A stretch of DNA of 35,186 nt from positions 83,722-118,907 of the forward strand of contig JAGVMA010000044.1 of NCBI GenBank assembly GCA_020054095.1, in the 5' to 3' direction. Below are positions 27,824 to 35,186 of this stretch, one piece after another; position 1 is the first letter of the stretch, and every line of letters begins with the position of its first letter. Below the pieces are notes generated by a model. That model had not been told where the DNA came from, did no database searches, and was given only the letters and a program-made list of their open reading frames with translations. The DNA is from Bacteroidia bacterium. Its GTDB lineage: Bacteria > Bacteroidota > Bacteroidia > JADZBD01. A program made the translations under genes and the position numbers.

Positions 27824-30727
27824 TTACACTACTATATTTACTATTTTATTGGGTACTATTATCAGTTTTTTGGGAGTTTTGCCTTCTAATAATTTTTGGG
27901 TTTGCTCCAGCGCCATCACTTCTTTTTCAATTTCTTCTTTGCTGAGCGTTAGTGCAAGCTCGTGAAAAAATTTTGTTTTTCCGTTTACCGAAACCGGATA
28001 ATTAAATGCCGACTCAGTGGTGTGTGCTTCAATATATGTTGGCCACGATGCATAAGTGATACTTTCGTTATGTCCCATTTTTTGCCAAAGTTCTTCGCAA
28101 ATATGTGGTGCATAGGGTGCAATTAAAATAATGAGTGGCTCTAAAATTTCGCGCTTGTTACATTTTAATTCGGTGAGCTCATTTACACAAATCATAAAAT
28201 TGCTTACCGATGTGTTAAACGAAAAGCGCTCAATATCATCGGTTATTTTTTTTATCGTTTTGTGCAGCGATTTTAATTCGGGTTTGGTTGCAGCATCGTT
28301 ACTGATGCCATTTTCGAATAAGCGCCATAGCTTTTTAAGGAAACCACTAACACCGGTTATTCCATTGGTATTCCATGGTTTGCTAAGTTCAAGCGGACCT
28401 AAAAACATTTCGTATAAGCGCAAGCAATCGGCACCGTGTTGTTTGCAAATATCATCAGGGCTAACTACATTCCATTTTGATTTTGACATTTTCTCGACTT
28501 CCCAACCACAGATATATGTTTGATCGTCTTCAAATATGAATACATCTTTTATTTCATTTTTCTCATTAAACTTATTTGTGTCTAAAACATCATTATCAAC
28601 TAATAGAATATTAACACGTTCGGGAATAACTTTACAATGATCTATTTGTAAACCATTGTATTCTGATATGGGACGAACACCCAAGTCTATCATTTTCTGT
28701 TTTGCTTTCTCTTGACCAAGAGACTCCCACTCGCTAATTTTTTCTTTAGAAACGTAAAGACTCGGCTCCCCTAAATTATTAACCCTATAAATAAAGTTGC
28801 TTCTACCCTGTATCATCCCTTGGTTAATTAATTTTTTGGCGGGTTCATCCACATTAATAAATCCTAAATCTTTAAGGGCCTTGGTCCAAAAGCGCACATA
28901 TAGCAAATGCCCCGTTGCATGTTCGCTGCCGCCAATGTATAAATCTATGTTTTGCCAATAATCGGCTGCTGCTTTTGATACAAATTTGTTTTTGTTTGTG
29001 GCATCCATGTAACGCAAAAAGTACCAACTGCTGCCTGCCCAACCAGGCATAGTGCTTAATTCGTATTCATATTCGTTTTTGTATTTCCACTCAATAGCTC
29101 TGCCCAAAGGTGGTTCACCGGTTTCGGTGGGCAAATATTTATCTACTTCGGGCAACACAATTGGTAAATCCTTTTCATCTACCGCACACGGAATTAATTC
29201 TACCTCTCCTTCGGAGAGGGCTGGGGAGAGGCGTTTGTAATAAATAGGAATGGGTTCGCCCCAATAACGCTGCCTGCCAAATACGGCATCGCGCAGGCGA
29301 TAATTGGTTTTGCCTTTTCCAAAATTTTGTTTTTCTATTTCTTCAATTGCTTTTTTGATGGCAGCTTTTACTTCTAAGCCGTTTAAAAAATCGGAATTAA
29401 CGAGCGTGCCTGTTTTTTCGTCCCACGAATTTTTTTCAAAATCATGCTCCACATTAGGTGTAATAACCTGTGGTTTTGGCAAACCAAAATGGTTGGCGAA
29501 TTTAAAATCTCGCTCATCGTGAGCGGGCACCGCCATCACCGCTCCTGTGCCGTATCCGGCAAGTACATAATCGCCCGCCCATATTGGTATTTGCTTTCCG
29601 CTGAACGGATGAATGGCATAAGCACCTGTAAATACTCCACTTATTTTATTTACATCAGCTTGTCGTTCGCGCTCACTGCGGTTTTTTGCGATGGTAATAT
29701 ATTCTTCCACTGCTTTTTTCCGTTCGGCAGTGGTAATTTGTGCTACCAATTCGTGTTCGGGCGCAAGCGTTAAAAACGATACTCCAAAAATAGTATCGGG
29801 TCTTGTTGTGAATACCTCTATGGTGCTTTTTGAATTTTCAATTTTAAATTTAAGTGAAGTTCCTTCACTTTTCCCTATCCAATTGCGCTGCGATTCCTTT
29901 AATGATTCTGTCCAATCAATTTCGTTTAATCCATTTAATAATCGCTCGGCATAAGCTGTTATGCGCATGTTCCACTGTTTCATTAATTTGCGCTCCACAG
30001 GGTAGCCGCCACGTTCGCTCACGCCATCTTTCACTTCATCATTAGCAAGCACGGTGCCTAATTGCGGACACCAATTTACATACGCTTCGCCCAAATAAGC
30101 AATGCGGTAATCCATCAGCAAATCGCTTTGTTCTTTTTCAGTAAGTTCATCCCAATGCTTATCAATACCATCAATTGTAAATTTTAAATTGCCAATTTTA
30201 AATTGATTAATGAGTGTATCAATGGGTTCTGCTTTATCGCTTTTAGGATTGTACCACGAGTTAAACAATTGAATAAAAATCCATTGTGTCCATTTATAAT
30301 ATTCAGGATCGGATGTGCGTACTTCGCGCTCCCAATCAAACGAAAACCCTATTTTATCTAACTGCTTGCGGTAGCGTTTTATATTTTGTTCGGTAGTTAT
30401 TTTCGGGTGCTGGCCCGTTTGTATCGCATATTGTTCGGCAGGCAGGCCAAACGAATCGTAGCCCATGGGGTGCATTACATTAAAACCACACAAGCGCTTG
30501 TAACGCGCCACTATATCGCTTGCAATATAACCCAGCGGATGCCCCACATGCAAGCCCGCACCACTCGGATACGGAAACATATCTAACACATAATAAGGCG
30601 CCCCTCCCTTCCTCCCCGAAGGGGAGGAGCTAAATTCGGGCTCATCCGGATTAAAGGTTTTAAATGTTTTGTTATCAGCCCAATATTTTTGCCATTTGGC
30701 TTCTATATCTTTGAAATGATATTCCAT
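27824..30727 (-). CDS. leuS: Leucyl-tRNA synthetase with two palindrome-derived insertions
   Basis: LeuS charges tRNA-Leu with leucine. The 967-residue class I synthetase has the HIGH motif as H60-V-G-H63 ([15 protein letters not shown]), a full CP1 editing domain ([27 protein letters not shown]), the KMSKS loop ([17 protein letters not shown]) and the C-terminal anticodon-binding and tail domains. It is complete and looks functional. Two segments are unusual. Residues 33-43 ([11 protein letters not shown]), just before the catalytic [12 protein letters not shown] strand, and residues 499-510 ([12 protein letters not shown]) are encoded by GC-rich palindromic elements that keep the frame. It heads an operon with the DUF3108 and TMTC-like genes. 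TTG-N18-TAAATTCG lies directly upstream, and a 21-bp-period inverted-repeat array lies beyond that. Confidence 0.97.
29203..29231 (+). repeat. Palindromic repeat element inside leuS (copy A)
   Basis: CCTCTCC (29203-29209), loop TTC, GGAGAGG (29213-29219) form a 7-bp hairpin, followed by a third related arm ending GGGGAGAGG at 29231. On the leuS strand it encodes the LSPALSEGE segment. It shares architecture and TTC loop with the element at 30601-30630 but lies in the opposite orientation. I recall similar GC-rich palindromes as dispersed repeats in Bacteroidota genomes. Confidence 0.7.
30601..30630 (-). repeat. Palindromic repeat element inside leuS (copy B)
   Basis: On the leuS strand TCCTCCCC, loop TTC and GGGGAGGA (30628-30610) form a perfect 8-bp hairpin, followed by the third arm AGGGAGGGG. 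The layout arm-TTC-arm-third arm equals that of the element at 29203-29231. It encodes residues 33-43, directly in front of the LeuS catalytic domain, without breaking the frame. Confidence 0.7.
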
Positions 30728-30735
30728 GTTGGCTG

Positions 30736-30764
30736 CGAATTTAGGGAAAAGGATTTACTGCCAA
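30736..30764 (-). promoter_or_regulatory. Promoter of the leuS operon
   Basis: On the minus strand TTG (30764-30762), an 18-nt spacer and TAAATTCG (30743-30736) fit the Bacteroidota pattern with one mismatch in the -7 box. It ends 8 nt before the leuS ATG. The same TAAATTCG sequence lies upstream of the ALDH gene. The inverted-repeat array starts 30 bp further upstream of this site. Confidence 0.45.
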
Positions 30765-30793: not shown

Positions 30794-31020
30794 CTAAACT
30801 TTAAGTTTAATTTTTCTCACTTTAGGGATAAAGCTTTCTACTTTTTGTAGAATAAATTGTCGTTTAGGTAGAATATTTTCTACTCAAAGTAGAACATTTG
30901 GTGCTTTTTGCACCAAGCATGGTGTATTTTACACGAGCGTTGGTGTTATTTACACGAAACTTGGTGTATTTTACACGAAAGATTGTGTTATTATCACAAT
31001 ATATTGTGGTTTTTCCACAA
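30794..31020. repeat. Array of 17-nt inverted repeats with exact 21-bp period
   Basis: This fills the only gene-free stretch above 300 bp (30728-31077). Units of 17 nt (6-nt arm, 5-nt T-rich centre, 6-nt arm) start at 30836, 30857, 30878, 30899, 30920, 30941, 30962, 30983 and 31004, each followed by exactly 4 nt. Perfect examples are ttctac-ttttt-gtagaa (30836), ttctac-tcaaa-gtagaa (30878), tggtgc-ttttt-gcacca (30899) and ttgtgg-ttttt-ccacaa (31004). Units at 30920, 30941 and 30962 read tggtgt...acacga with one mismatched pair, and 30983 reads ttgtgt...tcacaa. The unit at 30857 is degenerate. Two further in-phase units are palindromic with one mismatch (30794: ctaaac-tttaa-gtttaa) or degenerate (30815). 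The arm sequences differ between units but stay complementary. The spacers do not resemble one another. Confidence 0.9.
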
Positions 31021-31334: not shown

Positions 31335-31352
31335 TGAGATAAATTTATCTCA
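31335..31352. promoter_or_regulatory. Perfect 18-bp palindrome upstream of the XRE gene
   Basis: TGAGATAAA is followed directly by its reverse complement TTTATCTCA. It lies 32 bp upstream of the XRE GTG, where a promoter would be expected, which suits a dimer-binding operator and autoregulation. This is inferred from symmetry and position only. Confidence 0.5.
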
Positions 31353-31416: not shown

Positions 31417-31438
31417 TTATTTCTGTATACAGAAATAA
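31417..31438. promoter_or_regulatory. Perfect 22-bp palindrome upstream of the large T9SS gene
   Basis: The half-site TTATTTCTGTA (31417-31427) is followed directly by its reverse complement. It ends 29 bp before the ATG at 31468. It has no loop, so it is more likely a protein-binding site than an RNA hairpin. Its sequence differs from that of the palindrome at 31335-31352. A -7-like TATATTCG sits upstream at 31370-31377. Confidence 0.5.
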
Positions 31439-31467: not shown

Positions 31468-32046
31468 ATGAAAAAACTAATCACCTTATTTTTTGCTGCG
31501 CTGCTGGCGCTAAATGTAAATGCACAAAACACTTGTGCGAGTGCAAGAATATTAATTTCATCTGTTTGCAAACAAAATGAAGTATACTCTACTGACGATA
31601 TTTGGTACAAATTCATCGCAGATACAGCTTACCTTAGCGTAGAAATTACAAACAACAGCACTTATCCACAAAGTTTTGTGAAATCTGTTTACATATATAA
31701 TGGAAATTGTGCGACCATGAATTTATTAGACAGCACTAACATAACGGGAGTGTACGATAAGTTAAATACAACATCTTCATCATTAAATGTTGGAGATACA
31801 ATTTTCATAAGAGTGGTAAATAAAATATATGTGGTTAACGGCTCTGCGATTCCGGTTGATTTTAATATTTGTATTAATGTTACACAAAATATAGTTTGTA
31901 ATTCGACCGTGTGTCCTTTAAATAACCCAACATGCGATTGGATATGTAACGGTGACTTTGAATATTTTACAACATGTCCATTTGACTTAGTGCAGTTGCT
32001 AATGCCACACCAAGTAATATATGTGTTGGTCAAAGTAGTACATTAA
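31468..32046 (+). CDS. N-terminal fragment of a large T9SS-secreted protein (frameshifted)
   Basis: The ATG at 31468 begins a signal peptide (MKKLITLFFAALLALNVNAQ). A beta-sandwich follows, with DIWYKFIADTAYLSVEI and VGDTIFIRVVN (pre-peptidase C-terminal-like pattern). Then comes CDWICNGDFEYFTTCP, the beginning of an 'NGDFE' domain common in Bacteroidota surface proteins. That domain stops after about 16 residues and the frame ends at 32046 in nonsense sequence. From about 31986 the -1 frame continues with PKD-like repeats of the same protein type. The best reading is one gene disrupted by an internal deletion or small indel. No slippery heptamer is present in the overlap 31986-32046, so programmed frameshifting is unlikely. 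Confidence 0.8.
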   Translation: MKKLITLFFAALLALNVNAQNTCASARILISSVCKQNEVYSTDDIWYKFIADTAYLSVEITNNSTYPQSFVKSVYIYNGNCATMNLLDSTNITGVYDKLNTTSSSLNVGDTIFIRVVNKIYVVNGSAIPVDFNICINVTQNIVCNSTVCPLNNPTCDWICNGDFEYFTTCPFDLVQLLMPHQVIYVLVKVVH

Positions 32047-35000
32047 CAGCAAGCGGTGGTAATAACTATTCTTGGGCGCCCGCCCTTGGTTTGAATACAA
32101 CCACTGGAAATACAGTAATAGCATCACCAAGTGCAACCACAACTTATACGGTTTTTTCATCTTCGCAATATGGCTGCTCACAATCTGCAACCGTTACAGT
32201 TATGGTCAATCCCTTGCCTAACGCTTCCATATTGCCATCAAATGCTCTTATATGTGTCGGGCAATCTATACAATTAAATGCAACCGGAGGAGCATCATAC
32301 TCTTGGACTCCCTTCACTGCGCTAAACAATGCAAGTATCGCAAATCCGATAGCGTCACCTTCAATCACTACAGTGTACACCGTTTATGTAACTAATAGTA
32401 ATGGCTGCAGCTCATCTGCAATTACAACTATAAATGTCCACCCTTTTGTTCCCACCCCCATCATTGCAGGTGGTTTTAATAACGATTGTAATTTGAATGT
32501 GGCATCTACCTATTCTATTTCAAATGCATCGCCTAATTATAGTTATGCTTGGCAAATTACTAACGGCACACCTGCAAATGCAACAGGAACAAGCGTGCCT
32601 ATTAGTTGGACGGCAAGCGGAGGCAGCATTTTTGTGGTTGCCACTGATAACAGCACAGGTTGCACAGCCACAGCCACTTTCACCATTGAGCCCTGTTGCG
32701 GACCGGCATTCAGCACATCGTGTGTGTTTAACGATAATAACCCAAGTACTTTTATTTTTGTGGATAATGTAACCAACAGCGTTAGCGCACTTGCCCTGCC
32801 ACCTGTTGTGAGTAATCAAGTGATAGTGGTGAGCGGTACATTTATTATTAACCAAAATATCACATTTGACAAATGCCATTTTTTAATTGCACCTAACGAA
32901 AAAATAATTGTAAACAGCGGTGTTACATTAACGCTGCTTAACCGAACAGCCATGGAAGCCGGATGTTGCAAAATGTGGGACGGTATTTATTTAACCGACC
33001 AAACATCTGCGCTCATAATAAATGGAAATGCAGGCACGCTGTTTATTGAAGATGCTAAAAATGCAATTGTATCAAACCTGGGTGGTGTGTACACTATTAA
33101 TAATTGTGTTTTCAATAATAATTTAAAAGGGATAGTAGTAAATCCGTTTCCGGGTAACCATGCCGGCACGGTGCGTAACAGTGTGTTTAGCTCGGCACCA
33201 TCTAATTTTAGCGGCACATCGGCCACTTTGCTGCCGCCCTTTGCCGGACAAAAAGCATTAGTAGGTATTGAAATTACCGATGTGTTGGGCGCTATAGCTA
33301 TAGGTAGCAGTGCAAGCGTACCCGACAAAAATATTTTTAATAATTTGCTTTATGGCATTAGTGCTTACCGCAGCAATGTGATTATACGCAATAACGAGTT
33401 TAAAAATATTACAACAACAAGCTTGGCGCCACCACCATATATTTGTTCGTTTGGCACAGCAGTGTGCGCACGGGGCTTTAAAAACACCACTTACACTGTA
33501 ACAGTGGGCGGCCCTGCCAATTTGCACAAAAACATATTTACTAATTGTGCCATTGGCATTAACTGTTTCGATTATTTAAATGTAACAGCCGAAAACAATG
33601 ATATAGATTTGAATTACACATTCCCTAATTTAGGATTAGGCATATTTGTAACCAACTGCCCGGGCAATACCATTACGGTTAAAAATAACCGCATACGCAA
33701 GTTTAATTTGGCGGGCATTAGCATATCGCACGTTACACAAGCCACCGTTAATGTATTTGGCAATGTGCTTACCAATGGCGGCAATAACAGTAATACTGCA
33801 CGCGGCACAGGTATTTACATTGCCTCGGTAGATTTTTTGGTAATAACCCAGCCCACCATCAATGTGTATAACAACCAAGTGTTGGGCATGCAAACCGGTA
33901 TTAACACCATTAATGCAGCACCTGTAAATATTTACAATAACATTATTGGTTTTACCAATGCATTGCTTAGCGGCACTTACTATGGCATACGTGCCCAAAA
34001 CACATTTGGCACCATAGGACCTAATAATAATATTAATAAAAGCGGAGCCATACCCAATGCCGCCTTGCAAAACAAAGTGCTGGGCATAAGTGCCGAACTT
34101 AGCCCCGGCATTACCATTATAGAAAACAACATGGATAAAACCGGAACCGGCATACGATGCTTTGGAAGCATGCCTAATTCTGTTTTGCAATGTAACCACA
34201 TGGATAAAACGTACCGTGGGGTGTGGCTTGATAACTGCGATATTGGACAACAAGGAAGTGTAGGGTTTCCGAGCGATAATACCTGGAAGAATAATGTAGG
34301 GCCATATAAGATAGAAGGAATATCAAATATTACAAGCAGTTGGTATTACCGTAACACAAGTGCAGGCAATTACTCTGCTGCTAATTTTAATTTATTTCCT
34401 TATGACCCACCACAAGCGTTGGTGGCTATAATAAATAACGGAAATTATACTTGTTCATCGGGTACACCTTGCCCTAATTGCAGAGCAGCGGTGTTTTCGC
34501 AAATAGTACAAGAACAAAATCCGTTTGATAGTATCAGTATAGACGAAAAATTTATCAAAAAACAACAAGTGTTTCGATATTTGAAAAAAGATAGCAGTAT
34601 TATGTATTTGAATACAACCAACGATATAGTATTGCAGAATTTTAAAACCACTGCCGAACCAACTGCTACCGGTAAGTTCGAAAACGTAAGGAAAGAAATA
34701 GGTATGCAAAATTATGTAACAGCAATTACAGAGAATAATCAAGCAACTGCGAATTGTGTTCAGGAGCTAAATCACAAAGAAGTGTATGCAATTTACCTCA
34801 ATACGTTTGCAAATGATGTATTTGCATTCGATTCTGTCCAATACAGCACACTTTTAAATATCGCATCAATGAATCCTTATTATGGAGGATTGGCGGTTTA
34901 CGATGCACGTGCTATGCTCAATATTAATCAGGATGATTTTTTAAGTGAAAACAACCGATACAAATTAGAAGAAGAGTTAATGGTTAGTGAAAAAACCCCC

Positions 35001-35186
35001 GAATTTCTACTTTTCCCTAATCCCAACAACGGTAAGTTTTATTTACAGCATAATTTGCAAAATGCAAATACCGATGCTACGCTTAATATATATGATGCAA
35101 CAGGGCGCGTAATAAAAAATATGAGCTTAAAATTAAGCGATAGCATTACCGAAATTGACATTACAAATATTACAAACGGAACTTAC
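31986..35186 (+). CDS. C-terminal part of the same large T9SS protein: PKD-like repeats, beta-helix, type A sorting domain (runs off the window)
   Basis: The frame is open from just after a TGA at 31983-31985 to the right edge, about 1067 codons, with no proper start of its own. It begins with two PKD/Ig-like repeats (ICVGQSSTLTASGG...TYTV; ICVGQSIQLNATGG...VYTV) and a third beta domain ending in EPCCGP. A long right-handed beta-helix region (about 32790-34390) has many short strands such as NNVIIRNNEF, VTVKNNRI and VNIYNNIIG. A helical stretch follows, then LLFPNPNNGKFYLQ...LNIYDATGRVI...DITNITNGTY, a T9SS type A tail cut by the window end a few residues before its finish. It is probably a surface adhesin or polysaccharide-binding protein in its intact form. 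Confidence 0.82.

Follow-up and report, generated by a model that had tools for sequence, protein, structure and literature searches.

What holds a row of short inverted repeats in strict helical register between a small XRE-type gene and leuS, and to which neighbour does it belong? In the window, meaning the whole 35,186-nucleotide stretch of DNA analysed here, the order on the minus strand is the XRE gene (74 aa, HTH_3), 58 bp, the array and then leuS. Here we report that this array belongs to a wider set of two-helical-turn arrays lying beside genes for small DNA-binding regulators in Bacteroidia. From sequence comparison, we suggest that the two-turn arrays of Bacteroidia most likely act as rows of predicted protein docking sites, a regulator-centred reading in place of a leuS-centred one.

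An array in exact 21-bp register

The preliminary description of this locus reported nine 6-5-6 units in strict 21-bp phase, and our statistics bear this out. Core units start at 30836 + 21k for k = 0-8 (the last at 31004), each consisting of a 6-5-6 inverted repeat and a 4-nt spacer (Table 1). Arm complementarity in units 1 to 9 is 6, 3, 6, 6, 5, 5, 5, 5 and 6 of 6, unit 2 (30857) being degenerate; 200 first-order Markov shuffles of the complete window never exceed 33 pairs, and the lag-21 self-match compares with a best value of 63 over lags 12-69 in 200 shuffles. The array is real and is no chance expansion. The two weaker units said to carry the phase on to 30794 are uneven, the outer one pairing at 5/6 arm positions and the one at 30815 at only 2/6.

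The arms had also been described as co-varying, and in the window they are, since with right arms permuted between units about 34 pairs form in place of 47 (P about 0.0001). Covariation over the whole array is strong largely because the array is a mixture of two motif types. Inside units 4-9 alone it is modest (P 0.003-0.008), in the second copy of the array in this genome it is borderline (P 0.016-0.07), and in two homologous arrays of another genome (L004 and L010) it is absent (P about 0.9 and 1.0); it is therefore not a general property of arrays. The proposal that symmetry and spacing are selected over sequence survives in its spacing half, the 21/22-bp period being conserved, and fails as a rule for symmetry because many homologous arrays are direct repeats with no palindrome.

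The suggested tie to leuS did not hold, and leuS is incidental. Neither an array nor an XRE gene is found upstream of leuS in 12 relatives, one of them of the same family, and a leuS-linked element was rejected on these grounds; in the same-family genome (G001) the gene upstream of leuS is a divergent FtsX-like gene. By eye, three relatives show counterparts of the putative leuS -7 element TAAATTCG, which resembles the Bacteroidota consensus TAnnTTTG; the array was thus probably added upstream of a leuS promoter that was intact. Absence from relatives of the same gene order, proposed earlier as a sign of chance expansion, is thus seen at the leuS locus only, since in other places it is helix-turn-helix genes with which the arrays keep a conserved association. 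On the far side of the XRE gene, the divergent secreted-protein gene seems split into two frames (31468-32046 and 32091-35186) near 32046-32091, which may be a frameshift or an assembly error.

Table 1. Positions of the array, its neighbours and related elements (window numbering unless a locus is named)
Feature	Position	Strand	Remarks
Core array, nine 17-bp inverted-repeat units in exact 21-bp register	30836..31020	.	47/54 arm pairs; lag-21 match 83/126
Units 1-3, TTCTAC-N5-GTAGAA type	30836..30894	.	motif as in the L004/G059:C71 array, upstream of an HTH-LZ gene in a distant relative
Units 4-9, (T/G)GTG-N7-CAC(A/C) type	30899..31020	.	82% identity over 129 bp to the C73 (L009) array
Weak in-phase extension	30794..30835	.	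arm pairs 5/6 at 30794, 2/6 at 30815
Small XRE gene, HTH_3, 74 aa	31078..31302	-	HTH_3 E 8.6e-16; one of 21 paralogs in the genome
leuS	27824..30727	-	first gene past the array in the XRE direction
Putative leuS -7 element TAAATTCG, TAnnTTTG-like	30736..30743	-	array lies upstream of it; counterparts in relatives
Perfect palindrome TGAGATAAATTTATCTCA	31335..31352	.	just 5' of the XRE start; unlike the array motif
Palindrome ATTTCTGTATACAGAAAT	31419..31436	.	leader of divergent secreted-protein gene; in 7/8 array-bearing XRE loci of this genome
Secreted (probably type IX-sorted) protein gene, 5' part	31468..32046	+	divergent from XRE
Other copies of ATTTCTGTATACAGAAAT	L003:4055-4072, L167:1378-1395, L172:1255-1272, L166:1251-1268, L180:1291-1308, L181:2393-2410		
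Members of the family of about 160-180 aa	L003:4681-5157, L004:1661-2179, L010:760-1269, L166:148-690, L180:194-715		

HTH-LZ genes and their upstream arrays

A DNA search of the whole genome found one further copy of the array (C73:5223-5395), and these two GTGT-type arrays show no homology outside the array edges. Two bases separate the last C73 unit from the ATG of the gene for P0001, a 103-aa protein that combines a Cro/C1-type HTH with a leucine zipper, a class referred to here as HTH-LZ. The AlphaFold2 model of P0001 predicts five short helices (the HTH) and one 34-residue helix (pLDDT 88), and in fold and profile searches the nearest solved relatives are C.BclI, SinR, HigA/HipB and the 434 repressor, the tail resembling dimeric coiled coils. 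Pfam matches to HTH_26 and HTH_3 both lie below their cut-offs, and P0001 passes no curated NCBIfam cut-off. An apparent pseudogene is present at L040:2030-2265 (G000:C70, minus strand), an HTH-LZ copy 80% identical to P0001 that lacks the first ~17 residues, a start and any array.

The window array has the exact 21-bp phasing of the HTH-LZ promoter arrays over nine units and differs from them in having leuS, not an HTH-LZ gene, directly downstream. Sensitive tblastn found no HTH-LZ gene or remnant within the window, and a decayed HTH-LZ gene beside the array was rejected. Isolated GGTGTN5ACAC sites in the genome number 30, compared with 37 for the reversed control; they are not enriched, so no dispersed regulon is visible and that candidate was likewise discarded. 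One further exact match to the GTGT motif stands alone at C13, with nothing remarkable in the sequence around it.

Starting from the C73 copy, HTH-LZ homologs were gathered from about 400 Bacteroidia genomes, with loci chosen by homology, and the set analysed comprised 91 distinct genes with at least 500 bp of upstream sequence. At an array-calling threshold set within this analysis, 21 of the 91 carry a clear array within 500 bp upstream. They come from eight genomes of five families: seven genes from G059, four from G132, three each from G158 and G064, and one each from this genome, G054, G270 and G180. Nineteen of these arrays have a 21-bp (or 42-bp) period and two (L149 and L158) a period of 22 bp, and lengths reach about 16-20 units. 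Unit sequence differs from nearly every array to the next, with TCCAGA-N5-TCTGGA in L010, AGGTTTAAAACCT in L145 and L147, and TCCGTGAACC... in L131. When all loci fetched were scanned at lags 15-63, 26 of 29 strong repeat arrays fell at 21, 42 or 63, two at 44 (22 x 2) and one at 15.

Significant palindromes were confined, among the arrays tested, to the window, C73, C71 and C66, the others being direct or mixed repeats; symmetry and covariation tests on homologous arrays led us to reject both a universal palindrome and universal arm covariation. Two motif blocks within one array occur in the window and in L043. In several cases a Bacteroidota -7 box lies near the gene-proximal array end (for example TATATTTG in L077 and L013, and TAAATTTG in L131). 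Higher-order 42- or 63-bp repeats of 21-bp units are present at L172:418-783 (G000:C12), L042:1616-1867 and L078:1860-2073, as if two or three unit types alternated.

The spacing extends to family members that lack long arrays. In the proximal 170 bp of these 70 genes, lags 22 and 21 rank as the top two of 62 (robust z 5.9 and 5.0); two-turn repeated operators therefore look family-wide, with the arrays as expansions of them. Each of the close-homolog pairs L149/L158 and L145/L147 has a common motif, and when every pair is compared, motif similarity is correlated with identity in the HTH (Mantel r 0.24, p 0.001; r 0.15, p 0.04 after one member of each of those two pairs was removed). Motif similarity showed no correlation with zipper identity (p 0.14), and the motif none with recognition-helix residues alone (p 0.22).

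The density of arrays was estimated from 396 kb of genome sampled regardless of HTH genes, in which no more than two non-coding 21-bp arrays were present; a LuxR-type gene lies downstream of one. Few HTH-LZ members were found in a phylum-wide sample with a strict cut-off, and viral contigs contributed two distant homologs only, one of which (L080) has no array in its upstream region. Arrays of 21 and 42 bp also lie beside LytTR-type and winged-HTH genes (L200:322-616 in G132:C5 and L201:2960-3210 in G064:C31), which suggests that the array habit reaches beyond Cro/C1-type regulators. Phrase searches of the literature returned no description of 21-bp arrays with XRE genes, nor of an HTH-LZ array class.

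Predicted operator rows and competing readings

The array, its phase, and its association with HTH genes both genome-wide and across genomes are direct observations. HTH-LZ operator rows are favoured because the units are diverse, their two-turn spacing is constant, the arrays are placed at HTH promoters, the zipper is of a dimerising kind and motif correlates with protein. On balance we lean towards a helically phased operator array bound cooperatively by HTH-LZ or similar dimers, which agrees with the cooperative protein array put forward in the preliminary description, although we infer the binding itself. One dimer, with its C-terminal leucine zipper, would occupy each 21-bp unit; at two DNA turns per unit all dimers would sit on one face of the DNA, so that neighbours would touch, fill the array cooperatively and build a short nucleoprotein row. 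In the presumed ancestral layout the array would lie directly upstream of, or overlap, the HTH-LZ promoter or start and serve autoregulation, and each paralog would have its own array motif.

The window copy is an orphan: no HTH-LZ gene adjoins it, it has two motif types, and it is placed between a small XRE gene, which it follows, and the leuS core promoter, which comes shortly after it. The C73-encoded P0001 would most likely bind units 4-9 in trans; the genome search turned up a single further copy of the window motif, and this copy sits against the start codon of an HTH-LZ gene. Units 1-3, with the motif of the homologous G059:C71 locus, may be older units. A bound row might act on leuS, on the XRE gene or on neither. 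Since arrays are also found 3' of small XRE genes and next to genes of the LuxR, LytTR and winged-HTH types, proteins other than HTH-LZ may be the binders in some cases.

That the adjacent small XRE protein binds the array as a second, 3' operator block, with HTH-LZ proteins playing no part at this locus, seems to us rather unlikely, even though the neighbourhood of the array with XRE-type genes is no accident. The window XRE has 20 paralogs in this genome (21 in all), and in eight of the 21 (window, C67, C82, C12, C65, C73, C79 and C16) a 21-bp array lies 3' of the stop of the gene, which together with the 21 HTH-LZ genes of eight genomes bears out the association with XRE-type genes noted earlier. 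The array lies within about 400 bp in five of the eight and, in C73, C79 and C16, beyond an intervening P158-type gene of about 160-180 aa; none of the 21 has an array directly upstream. In the window about 58 bp separate the XRE stop from the array, which is placed about 40-280 nt after that stop, and L203 in a distant relative has the identical XRE-array order. Yet 13 of the 21 XRE paralogs are without an array, and the array that shares the window motif belongs to an HTH-LZ gene. Moreover, most XRE promoters examined carry a private palindrome, unlike the array and mostly differing between paralogs (in the window, TGAGATAAATTTATCTCA compared with TGGTGT-N5-ACACGA in the array), which argues that each XRE protein controls its own gene at that palindrome rather than serving as the chief binder of the array; TGAGATAAATTTATCTCA is the probable private operator predicted for the window XRE.

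A mobile or neutral minisatellite, expanded by slippage and without a regulatory role, would account for the intergenic position and variable number of the repeats, for the 42- and 63-bp higher-order repeats as unit duplications, and for the presence of the leuS-adjacent array in this genome only when compared with 12 relatives. We regard it as distinctly unlikely, since almost every array has a different unit sequence at an unchanged period of 21 (or 22), placement follows HTH genes, the two GTGT-type arrays share no flanks, and HTH-LZ genes without long arrays keep the same periodicity. The nearest model is the BrickBuilt MITE minisatellite of Porphyromonas gingivalis, with intergenic 23-nt tandem repeats and one copy upstream of argS (PMC4596501). 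Like the arrays here it is an intergenic element of Bacteroidota with a period of about two helical turns, and, like the window array, it has a copy beside a tRNA-synthetase gene; unlike the arrays here it is one repeat family with terminal inverted repeats resembling those of IS5 elements, whereas here each array has its own motif and placement goes with HTH genes. Shared leader and tail terminal inverted repeats at several loci, as in such elements, were not found; the GTGT-type homology ends at the array edges.

The array lies 3' of the XRE stop, shuffled sequences fold much less well than either of its strands (z -5.9 and -6.1) and its innermost arm pair co-varies, all of which would suit a row of RNA hairpins at the XRE transcript 3' end or in the leader of the next gene, acting as terminator, decoy or protein-binding RNA. 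This is improbable given that hairpin phase is missing from many homologous arrays, which are direct repeats, that spacing comes in whole DNA turns (21, 22, 42, 44), and that L004 and L010 lack covariation. There is no Rfam match, and a known RNA family was rejected; neither palindrome nor covariation is general enough for an intrinsic terminator or structured RNA. Scarcely credible is a coding role in which 21 bp stand for seven codons of a heptad-repeat peptide: heptad-repeat frames are open in several arrays (e.g., L043, L172 and L203), and across the window core one plus frame is open and one minus frame nearly so, but the open-frame strand varies between arrays, stops interrupt five of the six frames of the window core, and the two 22-bp-period arrays (L149 and L158) led us to reject coding heptads. 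As a set, the arrays are explained less well by the RNA-hairpin, coding and simple-satellite readings than by operator arrays.

Relation to known systems

XRE repressors of the HipB, HigA, SinR and C-protein type bind palindromes near their own promoters as Cro/C1 HTH dimers, at one to a few operators. They are the closest solved folds to HTH-LZ, and differ in having no such C-terminal zipper and no long phased arrays with a motif for each paralog. BldC binds direct repeats cooperatively, head to tail (PMC5859096), like the row of repeated sites proposed to be filled by small HTH-LZ proteins. Unlike HTH-LZ, it has a MerR-like fold with no coiled coil, and we know of no motif diversification for it. 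KfrA autoregulators of broad-host-range plasmids share with HTH-LZ an HTH followed by a long alpha-helical coiled coil and a repetitive operator overlapping their own promoter (PMC7783346), a layout found in the predicted HTH-LZ arrangement, the window array being an orphan. However, the KfrA operator of RA3 has five 9-bp repeats in mixed orientation (PMC7783346), compared with an exact 21- or 22-bp period kept over as many as about 16-20 units in the present arrays. HTH-LZ proteins have a Cro/C1-type HTH, their main matches being HTH_26/HTH_3 with no KfrA family among the matches, and the one member searched against plasmid or phage records (L131) had no match. TAACTGA heptamer direct repeats, many of which lie just upstream of start codons in one host and which also occur in a few Bacteroidetes (PMC4679880), differ in their 7-bp unit and one fixed sequence.

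If the HTH-LZ operator reading is true, these genomes hold a natural library of small HTH proteins, each with its own multi-copy, exactly phased target array. Such a library would aid the study of DNA-recognition specificity through co-evolution and of compact, cooperative filament-like repression, and would offer orthogonal regulators; the 21-bp arrays would also account for odd heptad-repeat ORFs in annotations of such genomes. A broader picture is possible but doubtful, in which many Bacteroidia maintain self-addressed regulator/array pairs, each small HTH protein recognising a private motif repeated 5-20 times at exactly two turns, giving mutually orthogonal nucleoprotein rows that evolve by rapid co-divergence and array capture; the window would then be a captured array in the middle of a motif switch, bringing leuS or the surface-protein/XRE module under control.

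Several further features of the XRE loci were observed. The neighbour is of the secreted-protein type at five of them (window, L166, L167, L168 and L172), and ATTTCTGTATACAGAAAT, with much of the surrounding secreted-gene leader, hardly varies among seven of this genome's XRE loci; it is possibly a shared operator, a leader hairpin, or a recombination site through which variable secreted-protein genes become linked to XRE modules. A protein family of about 160-180 aa with no Pfam match and the motif NLTxxERxxLxxMGNxRYxF recurs between XRE gene and array or between array and the other neighbour. At L167:1763-1972 (G000:C67), nine near-identical 21-bp units around TGTGCGCACA directly follow the XRE gene, and from its sequence this array looks recently homogenised.
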